A stretch of DNA of 34,272 nucleotides, from NCBI GenBank assembly GCA_020428685.1, contig JAGQMJ010000009.1, positions 1 through 34,272 on the forward strand, written 5' to 3'. Positions 23,004-29,169 of the stretch are shown here, piece after piece. The translations under genes and the position numbers were made by a program. Position 1 is the first letter of the stretch; every line of letters begins with the position of its first letter. Under the pieces are notes generated by a model. That model did not search any database. It saw nothing but the letters and a program-made list of their open reading frames with translations, and had not been told where the DNA came from. This DNA comes from Candidatus Kaiserbacteria bacterium (GTDB lineage Bacteria; Patescibacteriota; Minisyncoccia; Phycocordibacterales; UBA918).

Positions 23004-23032
23004 TTGGTCTCTAGCACTCTGGCTTGTATACT
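23004..23032 (+). promoter_or_regulatory. umuD promoter
   Basis: TTGGTC (23004-23009), 17 bp, TATACT (23027-23032), then 9 nt to the ATG at 23042. No clear LexA operator is seen. Confidence 0.55.
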
Positions 23033-23041
23033 GAGTGTAAT

Positions 23042-23488
23042 ATGAAACCAACCAAAGAAACCATTGTGCGCTCCGTTTCTCCTGCTCAGTCTGGCAGTAA
23101 GCTTTCTCAGCCATTGTACGCTTCTCAACCAGCGGCTGGTTTTCCTGCACCGGGAGATGATCTGGTTGAACAGCCTTTGGATTTGAATGACTTATTGATA
23201 GATAATCCCAGTGCTACTTTCTTCGTGCGTGTAGCTGGTGACTCTATGGAAGGTGCCAAAATCTTCGACGGCGATATTTTGGTGGTTGATCGTTCGGTAG
23301 AAGCTGTGGCTGGAAAGATAGTGGTGGCGGCTGTCTATGGTGAATTGGTGGTAAAGCGCCTCCAAAAAACCAAGTCTGGTCTGGCACTAGTTTCCGAAAA
23401 TGAATCCTACTCTCCTATCTTCATTGATGATGTGGAAGAATGTTACGTCTGGGGCGTAGTAATTGGTGGTGTCAGAGTGCTGTCGTAA
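23042..23488 (+). CDS. umuD: UmuD-type S24 peptidase (pol V subunit)
   Basis: The 148-residue protein is like UmuD and has no DNA-binding domain, so it is not a LexA repressor. The self-cleavage site is A32-G33 in AAGFPAPGDD, followed by LVEQPLDLNDLLIDNPSATF, which matches UmuD closely. Catalytic S68 lies in VAGDSM and K105 in VVKRLQ. In E. coli RecA-stimulated self-cleavage gives UmuD', which joins UmuC to form DNA polymerase V. The upstream in-frame TTG/other codons at 23024 are rejected in favour of the ATG at 23042, which follows a TATACT box by 9 nt. umuC lies 1.75 kb downstream and is not in the same operon. Confidence 0.92.
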   Translation: MKPTKETIVRSVSPAQSGSKLSQPLYASQPAAGFPAPGDDLVEQPLDLNDLLIDNPSATFFVRVAGDSMEGAKIFDGDILVVDRSVEAVAGKIVVAAVYGELVVKRLQKTKSGLALVSENESYSPIFIDDVEECYVWGVVIGGVRVLS

Positions 23489-25238: not shown

Positions 25239-26501
25239 ATGGAAAATACTTGGGTCGGATTACTGGATTGTAATAATTTTTTCGTTTCTTGCGAGCGGCT
25301 GTTTAGGCCGGATTTGGTAGGGAAGCCGGTAGCAGTTCTTTCTAGTAATGATGGTTGTGTCGTGGCTCGCTCTCAGGAAGTAAAGGACATGAATGTCCCA
25401 ATGGGTGTCCCTTATTTTCAGATAAAGGACATTTTAAAAAAAGGCTCTGTTACAACGTTTTCTTCACATATATCTTTGTATCGTGATATCTCTAGAAGAG
25501 TGTTTGAAGTGATGAAAAGGGAGATGGGCCAAGTAGAGCAGTACTCGATAGATGAAGCATTTTTCATCTGCAAGGGCAGTTTTGCAGAGGTGGAAAATAT
25601 GATTGAGCAACTAAAAAACGTGATTGAAATGGAAGTTGGAATACCGGTTTCGATTGGTTTGGCGCACTCAAAAACACAAGCAAAATACGCTGCCTCTATG
25701 GCAAAGAAAAGTGCTGGGGTAAAGGTGTTAAACATGGAAGAATGGTCGACCATTATCACCGATATTCCTCTAGCCAAGATCTGGGGGGTCGGAGGTCAAA
25801 TGGAGCTAAAATACAAGGCAAATGGACTAGTGACAGTAGCTGATTATTTGGCATCGGACAAGCAAAGACTGGGAGCTATTTTTGGGGTCGTAGGTCAGAG
25901 ATTGTATGCAGAATTATCTGGCTATGCTAGCCCATCATTGGGCAGCAGTTCTTCAGCGCAGAAGAGCTTGATGAGCTCCAGATCTTTCAAAAACCCAACA
26001 GAAAACATCGATGTTTTAGCTGACGCCATTGCTTACCATGTACGCCATGTAGCGGCTGATTTACGTCGACTCAAGCTCAAAGCAAGCCTTATCAGGGTGA
26101 GTATAAACACTAGTAGACATGGTGATTTTATCCTTCGTGGAGGCACGCTCGACGTTGCTTTTAATGACTCAACCAATGATACTTTTAAACTGATGGCGGC
26201 AGCACAGAAGCTACTAAAACAACTATATGAAAACGATGTGCCGTATAAAAAAGTAGGTGTAGTGGTCAGTGATCTTGTTGATTCTAATGGTCAGCAGGGC
26301 AGCCTATTTGTGGAGGAAGAGGTTACAAGAAAGCAGGATAGACTGATGGAAATTATTGATAATTTAAATACAGGCAAAAATAAGAATCTGGTGAAGCTGG
26401 GAACAAGGCTCCGAGCAAAAGAATGGCAGGGAAGACAAGACTCTTGTTCTCCCTCCTATACGACGCGCTGGTCCGATGTGGCTAGAGTGTCTGCAAAATA
26501 G
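25239..26501 (+). CDS. umuC: DNA polymerase V catalytic subunit UmuC
   Basis: The protein has 420 residues, the same length as E. coli UmuC. Y-family polymerase catalytic residues are present: D10 in LLDCNNFFVSCERLF, and D105/E106 in YSIDEAFF. The steric-gate region is F14-F15. GVGGQMELKYKANG (helix-hairpin-helix of the thumb) and the little-finger domain (SSSAQKSLMSSRSF onward) are complete. It performs error-prone translesion synthesis with UmuD'. It has its own leaderless promoter (TGgTATAAT). The gene is separated from umuD by a GH18 gene and a NUDIX gene, which is unusual. Confidence 0.94.
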   Translation: MENTWVGLLDCNNFFVSCERLFRPDLVGKPVAVLSSNDGCVVARSQEVKDMNVPMGVPYFQIKDILKKGSVTTFSSHISLYRDISRRVFEVMKREMGQVEQYSIDEAFFICKGSFAEVENMIEQLKNVIEMEVGIPVSIGLAHSKTQAKYAASMAKKSAGVKVLNMEEWSTIITDIPLAKIWGVGGQMELKYKANGLVTVADYLASDKQRLGAIFGVVGQRLYAELSGYASPSLGSSSSAQKSLMSSRSFKNPTENIDVLADAIAYHVRHVAADLRRLKLKASLIRVSINTSRHGDFILRGGTLDVAFNDSTNDTFKLMAAAQKLLKQLYENDVPYKKVGVVVSDLVDSNGQQGSLFVEEEVTRKQDRLMEIIDNLNTGKNKNLVKLGTRLRAKEWQGRQDSCSPSYTTRWSDVARVSAK

Positions 26502-26806
26502 TAATAGACATTTGTACTTGAATCTCCCTAAGCGCCATGTCCTCAAATAATCATTTTCACTATCTAAAACAACGATTTTATTAAGGAACAAAAGTCACAC
26601 GAGAAAGGTTATCAACAGCACATTTCGGACAGATGCTCAAAGACTTAGTATTATGTATTTAGATCGATTGAAGTGATGAATCTTACAAGGCTGAGTTTTT
26701 CTCAAATACGTAAACCAATTCATCATCTCCACAGAAACTTCAATCGATAGTTACTTCTACATTTTGGTAAAAGTAAGATTAGTTATTTAAAATAATATAT
26801 ATAAAC
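26502..26806 (+). other. 305-bp intergenic region before the major surface protein
   Basis: There is no ORF of note. It contains no obvious terminator for umuC. From 26626 on it holds a promoter-like pair (CGGACA at 26626-26631, 17 bp, TATTAT at 26649-26654), then a complex inverted repeat (26663-26748), a second hairpin (26751-26776), and an AT-rich stretch with a TAATAT box at 26793-26798, 8 nt before the ATG at 26807. Confidence 0.6.
26661..26776 (+). ncRNA. Candidate structured leader or small RNA
   Basis: The outer stem ATCGATTGAAGT (26663-26674) pairs with ACTTCAATCGAT (26737-26748). Inside it GATGAAT (26675-26681) pairs with ATTCATC (26718-26724), TTAC (26683-26686) with GTAA (26710-26713), and TGAG (26692-26695) with CTCA (26701-26704) around a T5 loop. 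A 12-nt bulge lies at 26725-26736. A second hairpin (TTACTT-C-TAC with GTA-A-AAGTAA) spans 26751-26776. A TATTAT box ends 6 nt before 26661. It may be the leader of the surface-protein message or a separate RNA. Confidence 0.45.
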
Positions 26807-27946
26807 ATGTTCGCAAATCCAACAAGTGTTGGCATTTCGCAACGAGTGGTCGCGACACTTGTTGCATGTGCGGTAGTGCTATTCTCAATCGGAGTTTACA
26901 CAACAGCACAAGCAGCTAACCTAACAGACATAAGTGACACTTTGTCAGACTCTGATGTTAGTGTGGTGTCAGATCACACCATCGCCTTCACAGTTCCAGC
27001 CGGATCACCAGGCTTACTGGCAACTGAGACCCTTACTATCACCTTCCCAGCAGGGTTCAATATGGGTTCGGTAGCATTCGGCGATGTTGACTTTAGTATT
27101 AACGCAGGAGACCAAACTCTTGCAGCTGCTCCATCAGGAGCAACTTGGGGAGCAGCAGTTGCTGGTCAAGTACTTACTATTACATCTGGAACCGGCGTTC
27201 TTAGTGCTGGTGATGTAGTAGAGATTCAAATTGGTACTAACGCAGCTGGTGGTTCAAATCAAATCACTAATCCAACTGCAGGATCATACGAGATTGTAGT
27301 TACAGCGGGGGCAGCAGACACTGGTCGCACACGTGTCGCTATCATAGATAATGTGTTAGTGACAGCAATTGTAAATACGTCTTTCGACTTCACTATCACA
27401 GGTCTAGCAACCTCAACTGCAGTAAACGGAACCTCAACTACTGGCTCAACTTCACCAACAGCAATTCCTTTCGGAGTTCTGACAGCTGGTGAGATCAAGT
27501 CACTAGCACAACGGTTAAATGTTTCTACAAACGCTCGTAACGGCTTCGTAGTAACAGTTGAAAGTGACGGAGATCTACAGTCATCTACAGGAGCTATCAT
27601 TGATAACTTTGATGACGGGTCAGACGTGTCTGATACAGGTACTGTCTGGAATGCTCCAGGTAACCTGATCGGTGATGAGACTACATGGGGTCACTGGGGT
27701 CTTACCTCAAATGACTCTGACCTAAACTCATTAGGCGGATTCTATTCTGGAGAATTTGGTGCCAACGAATTCGTTGCAGCATCAACTAGTCCACGAGCAG
27801 TCTTCCATCATGATGGTCCATCTGACGGAACAACAGCAAACATTGGTCAGTCTGATGTCTTGTACCAGGTAGAAATCACAGCTCTTCAAGAAGCGGCCGA
27901 TGACTACAGTACAACATTGACTTACATCGCTACTCCAACTTTCTAA
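26807..27946 (+). CDS. Probable major surface (S-layer-like) protein
   Basis: The 379-residue protein has a signal peptide (about 1-35, ending AQAA) and an otherwise Thr/Ser/Ala/Gly-rich, Lys- and Cys-poor beta protein with no membrane anchor. The first module (about 38-175; DTLSDSDVSVVSDHTIAFTV then TLTITFPAGF) is the Parcubacteria-type surface module also found at the N-terminus of the dockerin protein at 29637. The second half has SFDFTITGL, then NARNGFVVTVESDGDLQ, and ends TTLTYIATPTF. Codon use (AAC, TTC, GCA, ATC) is more biased than in neighbours, as in highly expressed genes. It has its own structured upstream region and a very strong terminator. Confidence 0.68.
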   Translation: MFANPTSVGISQRVVATLVACAVVLFSIGVYTTAQAANLTDISDTLSDSDVSVVSDHTIAFTVPAGSPGLLATETLTITFPAGFNMGSVAFGDVDFSINAGDQTLAAAPSGATWGAAVAGQVLTITSGTGVLSAGDVVEIQIGTNAAGGSNQITNPTAGSYEIVVTAGAADTGRTRVAIIDNVLVTAIVNTSFDFTITGLATSTAVNGTSTTGSTSPTAIPFGVLTAGEIKSLAQRLNVSTNARNGFVVTVESDGDLQSSTGAIIDNFDDGSDVSDTGTVWNAPGNLIGDETTWGHWGLTSNDSDLNSLGGFYSGEFGANEFVAASTSPRAVFHHDGPSDGTTANIGQSDVLYQVEITALQEAADDYSTTLTYIATPTF

Positions 27947-27990: not shown

Positions 27991-28083
27991 GCTTAAACAA
28001 ATTATTGTGTACATAACATCAAAAATTATCTGCCTAAGGATGATATTATTGAAAGGTTAATTTAATTTATTGTGTTCAGATAT

Positions 28084-29169
28084 ATGCATACCTTCTCTAC
28101 TTCCCGGATGACAGCCGTAAAAGCTCTGTCTGCAATCATTGCTTTAGTTGGCCTTTTTGCTTCTAGTTTCTATGTTGCGTTTGCACAAGAGACTGGAATA
28201 AGTATTACTCCAGCTACCATTGAGGAGACTTTGGATCCGGGTGTAGAGAAGCAGTATAGTGTTTCTATCCAGAACTTGAACAAATCTGAGCAGACGTTTT
28301 ACTTATTCACCAGAAACATCTCTGGTGTGAGAGATGGAGGTATGCCTGTCTTTGCGCCGGACAATGGTGAAAAAACTGGCTACGAGCTGTCTGACTGGAT
28401 AAAGTTGCCTGTTACTGAGTTGCAAGTTCCTGGAGGCGGAGCTACTACCATGAACTTCACTTTGTCTGTGCCTGAGAACGCTTCACCGGGAAGTCACTTC
28501 GGCGGTATCTTTATTTCAGTCGATCCACCAAAGATTGAAAACAGTGGTGCGGCTGTAGGTTATCAGGTCGCAAACATTATAAGTATTCGTGTTTCTGGTG
28601 AAGCGGTTGAAAAAGCAAGCATTCGTCAGTTTTCAACCTCAAGATTTCTTTACGGTTCTCAAAATGTAGAATTCTTAGTTAGAGTAGAGAATACCGGTAA
28701 TGTGTTGGTGAGGCCAATGGGTCCACTTGAAGTGTTCAACATGCTCGGCAATAAAGTCGGCACAGTGATGTTTAATGAATCTCAATCGGGAGTTTTTCCG
28801 AATGACACAAGAGAGTTTGGTGGTATTAAATGGATGGGTGACTCTGTCGGTTTTGGGCGCTACGAGGCAATCTTGAGTCCTGTGTATGGAGACAGTGGTG
28901 CCAAGAAAACTATGTCCAGCACGGTTACGTTCTGGATTCTACCAATGAGCATTATTGGTCCGGCCCTCGGGGTGTTGGCTTTCATTTTGATATTTGCTTT
29001 TATATTTGTCCGAGTATATATCAAGCGTTCACTAGCTCATTTGAATCAGGGTAGGAGAGTGGTGCAGAGAAGGAGAAAGGGTGGATCTTCTGCGACTCTA
29101 CTGCTGGTGGTTGTGATGCTGACTGTGACTGCACTATTCCTCATTGTTTTGCTGGCATTGTTTGCTTAA
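28084..29169 (+). CDS. DUF916-like membrane surface protein
   Basis: The protein has 361 residues from ATG 28084 (a GTG at 28072 is in frame). A signal peptide (about 8-36, ending AFAQ) is followed by two Ig-like domains: ISITPATIEETLDPGVEKQY, then NLNKSEQTFYLFTRNI, and PENASPGSHFGGIFIS; the second around 165-275. This is the layout of DUF916/WxL-interacting proteins. A membrane segment (about 289-312), a basic cytosolic loop (RRVVQRRRKGG) and a final membrane segment (about 338-361) end it. Such proteins bind partner proteins or peptidoglycan at the surface. A TGaTATTAT box at 28041-28049 may be the promoter. First gene of the cohesin/dockerin group. Confidence 0.72.
   Translation: MHTFSTSRMTAVKALSAIIALVGLFASSFYVAFAQETGISITPATIEETLDPGVEKQYSVSIQNLNKSEQTFYLFTRNISGVRDGGMPVFAPDNGEKTGYELSDWIKLPVTELQVPGGGATTMNFTLSVPENASPGSHFGGIFISVDPPKIENSGAAVGYQVANIISIRVSGEAVEKASIRQFSTSRFLYGSQNVEFLVRVENTGNVLVRPMGPLEVFNMLGNKVGTVMFNESQSGVFPNDTREFGGIKWMGDSVGFGRYEAILSPVYGDSGAKKTMSSTVTFWILPMSIIGPALGVLAFILIFAFIFVRVYIKRSLAHLNQGRRVVQRRRKGGSSATLLLVVVMLTVTALFLIVLLALFA

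Follow-up and report, generated by a model that had tools for sequence, protein, structure and literature searches.

The slp1 locus and the fold of leader 1

The window, meaning the whole 34,272-nucleotide stretch of DNA that was analyzed, is a contig (C64) of a 0.8 Mb draft genome, in which an inverted repeat sits between a umuC-type polymerase gene (25239-26501, Pfam IMS match) and slp1 (26807-27946, plus strand), a surface-protein gene encoding an exported protein of 379 residues. The next gene after slp1 (28072-29169) has a sub-threshold WxL-interacting-protein match. A plain protein scan of the genome contigs gave no confirmed relative; an alignment-based scan gave Candidatus Kaiserbacteria and other Patescibacteria. 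The umuC gene adjoins slp1 in nearly all readable slp1 loci, and in the window the polymerase, which carries DUF4113, is close to an S24 peptidase gene (23024-23488). Most slp1 genomes carry a paralogue, slp2, in another surface-gene cluster. Both proteins weakly match the NCBIfam model CPR_Pam_pilin_C (E about 0.001 and 19 bits versus a cut-off of 55; for slp1, E 0.0011, below the cut-off) and, judged by these matches, may be distant Pam-type pilins. Our literature search found no paper on a Pam-type pilus or pilin in Patescibacteria.

The repeat, here called leader 1, proved to be built and placed as the initial annotation had described, with a 12-bp outer stem, nested stems, and a 12-nt stretch, all on the plus strand. 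The two arms of the outer stem, P1 (26663-26674 and 26737-26748), are 100% complementary over their 12 bp and are defined by fold and covariation. The inner stem, P2 (26675-26681 and 26718-26724), is defined by fold, covariation, and arm permutation, and encloses two nested stems, 26683-26686 with 26710-26713 and then 26692-26695 with 26701-26704. The 12-nt stretch (26725-26736) lies outside these stems, and the MFE structure puts a weak 3-bp hairpin there. Two motifs are conserved: GGCUGAG (26689-26695) in the terminal loop region and UCUCCAC (26726-26732) in an unpaired bulge. Each is proposed below to form a helix in trans with the leader of slp2 (leader 2), H1 with UUCAGCC and H2 with GUGGAGA. 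Farther downstream are a second hairpin, P4 (26751-26776), variable in sequence and conserved in position, and AGTTATTTA (26781-26789), a conserved element upstream of the start codon that emerged from the alignment of leader 1 regions. The segment from 26655 to 26785 folds at -29.2 kcal/mol versus -19.2 ± 3.3 kcal/mol for dinucleotide shuffles (z -3.0), 2 of 200 of which were as good. At the Rfam gathering threshold only a tRNA matched in the window, and leader 1 fell into no family. The matches returned in evalue mode were sub-threshold snoRNA and plasmid models, which we took as chance, none being a plausible candidate.

Promoter and predicted transcription start

Upstream of the stem is a plus-strand promoter-like site (26626-26654) composed of a -35 hexamer, CGGACA (26626-26631), a 17 bp spacer, and a -10 hexamer, TATTAT (26649-26654), which together fit 9 of 12 consensus positions. 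The hexamers alone are weak because two sites of this quality were found in a 600-bp region where 1.4 are expected by chance. The promoter given in the initial annotation is thus poorly marked by its hexamers and gains its credibility from its placement, which is conserved in 26/26 relatives. In all 26 of their leader 1 loci the stem begins 6-9 nt after the end of a -10 element (a TATAAT-like hexamer), a spacing that agrees with the start predicted two bases before the stem.

A TTATCAACA box, a DnaA-box-like 9-mer 54 nt upstream of the stem (26609-26617, plus strand), is the sole exact TTATCMACA in the window, and a TTATNNACA box is found 52-56 nt upstream of the stem in 26/26 leader 1 loci. 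Because box, -10 element, and outer stem keep their spacing in all 26 relatives, leader 1 RNA is predicted to start at the stem. The TTATNNACA box is also present upstream of leader 2, in reverse orientation, in 16 of 20 loci. Since both promoters share it, slp1 and slp2 are probably co-regulated at the level of transcription as well. Upstream of several slp homologues from more distant families, we noted TTATCCACA. Terminator-like sites were absent from the region 26400-27000, including the interval between stem and slp1.

Conservation and covariation of leader 1

A DNA search of 49 genomes of the family located the leader 1 region in congeners, where it lies between umuC and slp1 wherever both are readable. 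Leader 1 could be read in 27 of the 49 genomes, 20 of them by true matches to a covariance model (the model matched 21 genomes, the match at G033:C7 being false) and seven by synteny (G004, G011, G021, G022, G025, G033, and G048). It was not recovered in G003, G027, G028, and G044 because no complete umuC-to-slp1 stretch is assembled there; a pattern search of these genomes gave nothing recognizable by eye.

The stem sequences vary widely among these genomes while pairing is maintained. In an alignment of 19 sequences, which leans toward structure because it was fitted to the model, 93.1% of P1 cells were paired with double compensatory changes at 9/10 pairs, and 66.1% of P2 cells were paired with such changes at 6/6 pairs. 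Covariation in the same 19 sequences was compared with that in 500 shuffles, none of which reached it on four of five measures (6/500 on the fifth). An alignment-free test on 26 genomes (G030 was left out of the stem statistics owing to an insert in its leader) gave the same picture: P1 arms taken from one genome paired at a mean of -13.4 kcal/mol versus -6.2 kcal/mol across genomes, and P2 arms at -4.6 versus -1.7 kcal/mol, with 0/5000 permutations as good in either case. Compensatory change in relatives, by which the initial annotation would have had the stems judged, is therefore present in the form of double changes at 15 of 16 pairs. The P4 hairpin has z below zero in 22 of 23 genomes (mean z -2.7), G015 showing none, and the order of elements is P4, then AGTTATTTA in most genomes, then the start codon.

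Ten umuC loci lacking slp1 were examined by eye; in the seven that are readable downstream (L220-L225 and L229) the element is absent, which argues that leader 1 belongs to slp1 as its 5' leader. Its gene context is one surface-protein family only, and it lies directly before a gene in every locus that can be read through. It is practically certain that the inverted repeat makes up the 5' domain of a structured mRNA leader, one that is conserved in Kaiserbacteria. The initial annotation had offered a stabilizing 5' leader of the surface-protein message as one reading. The leader part of it stood, given that the stems covary, that the predicted start is at the stem, and that element and gene are present or absent together (except in G048); stabilization itself would fit a 5'-terminal stem.

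The G048 genome has lost slp1, and there leader 1, still preceded by umuC, stands immediately before the homologue of the gene at 28072. The fold of this leader 1 is retained, and it carries a compensated loop that matches the leader 2 of G048. Retention of leader 1 with a compensated loop after loss of slp1 points to a function beyond slp1, and a role in trans is likely. Leader 1 of G015 has lost CUCCAC, and neither leader 2 nor the slp2 upstream neighbor was found in that 84% complete assembly. Counting against a pairing of the two leaders, both motifs persist in leader 1 of G029, G042, and G047 although no leader 2 or slp2 upstream neighbor was found in these draft genomes.

Order-wide searches with the RNA models of leader 1 and leader 2 (397 genomes each) gave clear matches in the genus of the window only; weak leader 1 matches were seen elsewhere in the order in G137, G172, G378, and G058 (E 0.001-0.009). 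In the literature, we found no RNA motif described for Kaiserbacteria and no S-layer untranslated region described for Patescibacteria.

slp2 and leader 2

Leader 2, located upstream of slp2, is a closed domain with three hairpins plus a further hairpin, a fold unlike that of leader 1. In its domain 1, 94.9% of cells were paired and double changes occurred at 19/29 pairs (15 sequences). Two of its hairpin loops carry UCAGCC and GUGGAGA, and the stems of both hairpins covary, with 0/5000 permutations as good (22 genomes). The leader 2 model matched 21 of the 49 genomes of the family, and we accept 20 of these, each with a single credible match, the one in G041 being rejected; weak second matches in G031 and G045 were not considered credible, and the leader 2 sequences of G003, G004, G011, and G022 were added by eye. 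Leader 2 gave no Rfam match above threshold. The first loop reads UUGCC in G027, UUAGCC in G044, and GCAGCC in G003.

Several other features of these regions were noted. The leader 2 sequences of G027 (L144) and G044 (L146) are without the GUGGAG hairpin and have an ACAACG-like sequence there instead. AAGGAGGTAATCA, a nearly perfect complement of the 16S rRNA 3' end, occurs near the 5' end of leader 2 (L088, G000:C44, 36199-36284, minus strand), but it is partly within a hairpin and some 200 nt away from the slp2 start codon, on its upstream side. Just upstream of the slp2 start codon is a conserved ACAACGTAGAG (L088, L093, and others), and several leader 1 RNAs carry a similar UACAACG in P4. 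In G029 and G042, the upstream region of a third family of homologous genes was read and showed no leader of this kind.

Complementarity of the two leaders

Within the leader 1 fold, GGCUGA and UCUCCAC are the only runs of at least six conserved bases (conservation in 80% of 23 rows), and the leader 2 loop sequences UCAGCC and GUGGAGA are their exact complements. When all conserved 6-mers were compared, those of the promoter boxes included, the 10 of leader 1 and 14 of leader 2 formed three reverse-complement pairs, which fall at two sites, versus 0.034 pairs expected with equal base use. Identity, reversal-only, and complement-only controls on the 6-mers of the two leaders each gave 0 matches. 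With 5-mers there were five reverse-complement matches versus one each for the reversal and complement controls. In the predicted ensembles, all but one of the four motifs are unpaired most of the time. UCUCCAC has a mean unpaired probability of 0.87; the exception is GGCUGA, unpaired only about half the time (0.49), which counts against the proposed contact.

In five genomes (G012, G019, G031, G032, and G046) leader 1 and leader 2 share a strand at a distance of 32-45 kb, and otherwise they are on separate contigs; any contact between them must thus be in trans. The partners must be either two mRNAs or an mRNA and a processed leader.

Covariation between the leaders

Both leaders were available from 21 genomes, G003, G027, and G044 having been left out for want of leader 1 and G015, G021, G029, G035, G042, and G047 because leader 2 was not found. 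The first six pairs of H1 are all formed in 15 of the 21 genomes and all seven pairs of H2 in 19. Within genomes, 263 of 273 trans pairs are formed versus 257.3 ± 1.6 when partners are permuted; 24/20,000 permutations were as good (139/20,000 without G011, which was left out because it may share a change with G004), in a test that ignores shared ancestry and in which most genomes carry the commonest sequences. Taken separately, the observed score was reached by 317/20,000 permutations for H1 and by 1,893/20,000 for H2.

Compensatory changes in trans were found in three lineages. In G048, position 5 of H1 has gone from G-C to A-U (GGCUA with UAGCC); in G004 and G011, position 6 of H1 has gone from A-U to U-A (GGCUGU with ACAGCC); and in G022, position 1 of H2 has gone from U-A to A-U (ACUCCA with UGGAGU). 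These lineages lie on separate branches of a umuC tree whose backbone is poorly resolved. Uncompensated H1 mismatches are present in G039, G033, G025, and G045 and at one further position each in G022 and G048, and position 1 of H2, at the helix end, is mismatched in G019 and G032. In our view the strong evidence is the exact complementarity at both sites, and the covariation adds moderate support, since some mismatches are uncompensated and the permutation test disregards shared ancestry. The complementary segments with covariation that characterize an mRNA-mRNA pairing system are thus found here, the covariation being partial.

Discussion

Given the two folds, the placement of the promoter, and the exact complementarity of both motif pairs with its partial covariation, all of which come from computation, the best explanation in our judgment is that the slp1 and slp2 mRNAs kiss in trans through their leader loops and that this couples their stability or output, which we think is probably so. 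Transcription would start at the first pair of P1, leaving the 5' end of the mRNA held in a helix. The fold of leader 1 would then present unpaired GGCUGA and UCUCCAC, and the slp2 mRNA, encoded elsewhere, would present UCAGCC and GUGGAGA in two hairpin loops of leader 2. Through the loop-loop helices H1 and H2 the two mRNAs would contact one another, and the contact would couple their stability or translation and so keep production of the two surface subunits in step. We infer that the contact forms in cells; on the sequences at hand, contact between leaders 1 and 2 is likely, and coupled stability or output is a first guess at its effect. The start codons lie outside both interaction sites, and this would favor an effect on stability, co-localization, or leader refolding rather than a direct block of translation. 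That the two leaders, unrelated in fold, evolved as a matched pair by which the mRNAs dimerize via two kissing helices, tying together their stability, translation, or location, is a statement to which we would give an even chance.

Regulation could also run in one direction, with leader 1, or an sRNA processed from it, acting on slp2 via leader 2, a scheme that overlaps with mutual kissing of the two mRNAs and that we hold to be possible though doubtful. Leader 1 is a compact RNA, and in G048 it has outlasted slp1, its loop matching the leader 2 of that genome. However, no terminator (0 sites) separates leader 1 from the gene, it directly precedes a gene in all readable loci, and P4 and AGTTATTTA run on toward the start codon. 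The independent small RNA suggested in the initial annotation meets the same obstacle in the missing terminator, but the element outlives slp1 in G048, which makes a role in trans likely. A leader that acts only in cis as a 5' stabilizer slowing the decay of a surface-protein mRNA, its loops binding a protein or ligand and its match to leader 2 coincidental, seems to us rather unlikely. The stem does begin 6-9 nt past the -10 element in 26/26 loci, and stabilizing 5' stem-loops are known for ompA (excerpts of PMC7509114) and proposed for Lactobacillus slpA (excerpts of PMC6482533), but such a role leaves unexplained the exact complements of both loop motifs in leader 2, the compensatory trans changes, and the persistence of leader 1 without slp1 in G048.

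Two readings of other kinds are still less probable. The loops might be the binding pocket of a leader of a new class, either a riboswitch or an autoregulatory element of the ribosomal-protein type. A covarying scaffold that holds two short stretches of conserved, unpaired bases is typical of such elements, and a new class would agree with the lack of an Rfam match at the gathering threshold and of a plausible evalue-mode candidate. We nevertheless consider it improbable, because no alternative terminator is seen, the gene context is one surface-protein family only, and the exact complementarity to leader 2 goes unexplained. The repeat could finally be an element of the DNA rather than of RNA, such as a protein-binding palindrome or a recombination or replication site, given its nearly palindromic arms and the DnaA-box-like 9-mer 54 nt upstream of the stem. 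This is very improbable, as the stem letters change freely with pairing kept whereas the unpaired motifs are conserved, the fold begins at the predicted +1, and the repeat occurs in company with slp1 and not with umuC.

If trans kissing of the slp1 and slp2 mRNAs is correct, it would constitute a conserved docking of one mRNA on another through their structured 5' leaders, in bacteria of which the gene regulation is barely known. It would also open to study, at the sequence level, how such reduced and uncultured bacteria might keep two surface subunits in balance when their genes lie far apart.

The kissing antisense pair RNAI/RNAII of ColE1 has 6-7 nt hairpin loops with exact complements in the partner, and these complements are automatic because one locus, transcribed from both strands, yields the two RNAs. 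Leaders 1 and 2 likewise have hairpin loops with exact complements in the partner RNA. Unlike RNAI and RNAII, they have unrelated folds and come from separate loci, with 32-45 kb between them where both were matched on one contig (five genomes). In the hly-prsA2 system of Listeria monocytogenes, attributed to Ignatov et al. 2020 in the excerpts of PMC8079631 and PMC7821165, the mRNAs of functionally linked exported proteins pair and one protects the other from decay. Here too, two protein-coding mRNAs would base-pair in trans. As those excerpts describe it, hly-prsA2 pairs a 3' UTR with a 5' UTR, whereas the present contact would involve two structured 5' leaders of paralogues and two short loop-loop helices, in a leader pair whose conservation appears to extend over one genus and two of its sister genera.

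The resemblance to the ompA leader (PMC7509114) and to the Lactobacillus acidophilus slpA leader (PMC6482533), in the portions of those papers available, is a stem at or near the 5' end of a major surface-protein mRNA; leader 1 differs from both, so far as they are described there, in having conserved loop motifs that match another leader. Candidate RNAs from comparative genomics (PMC2864571 and PMC8632094) are, in the portions available, also covarying 5' leaders with no known ligand, and what sets leader 1 apart from those described there is a dedicated RNA partner that can be named.
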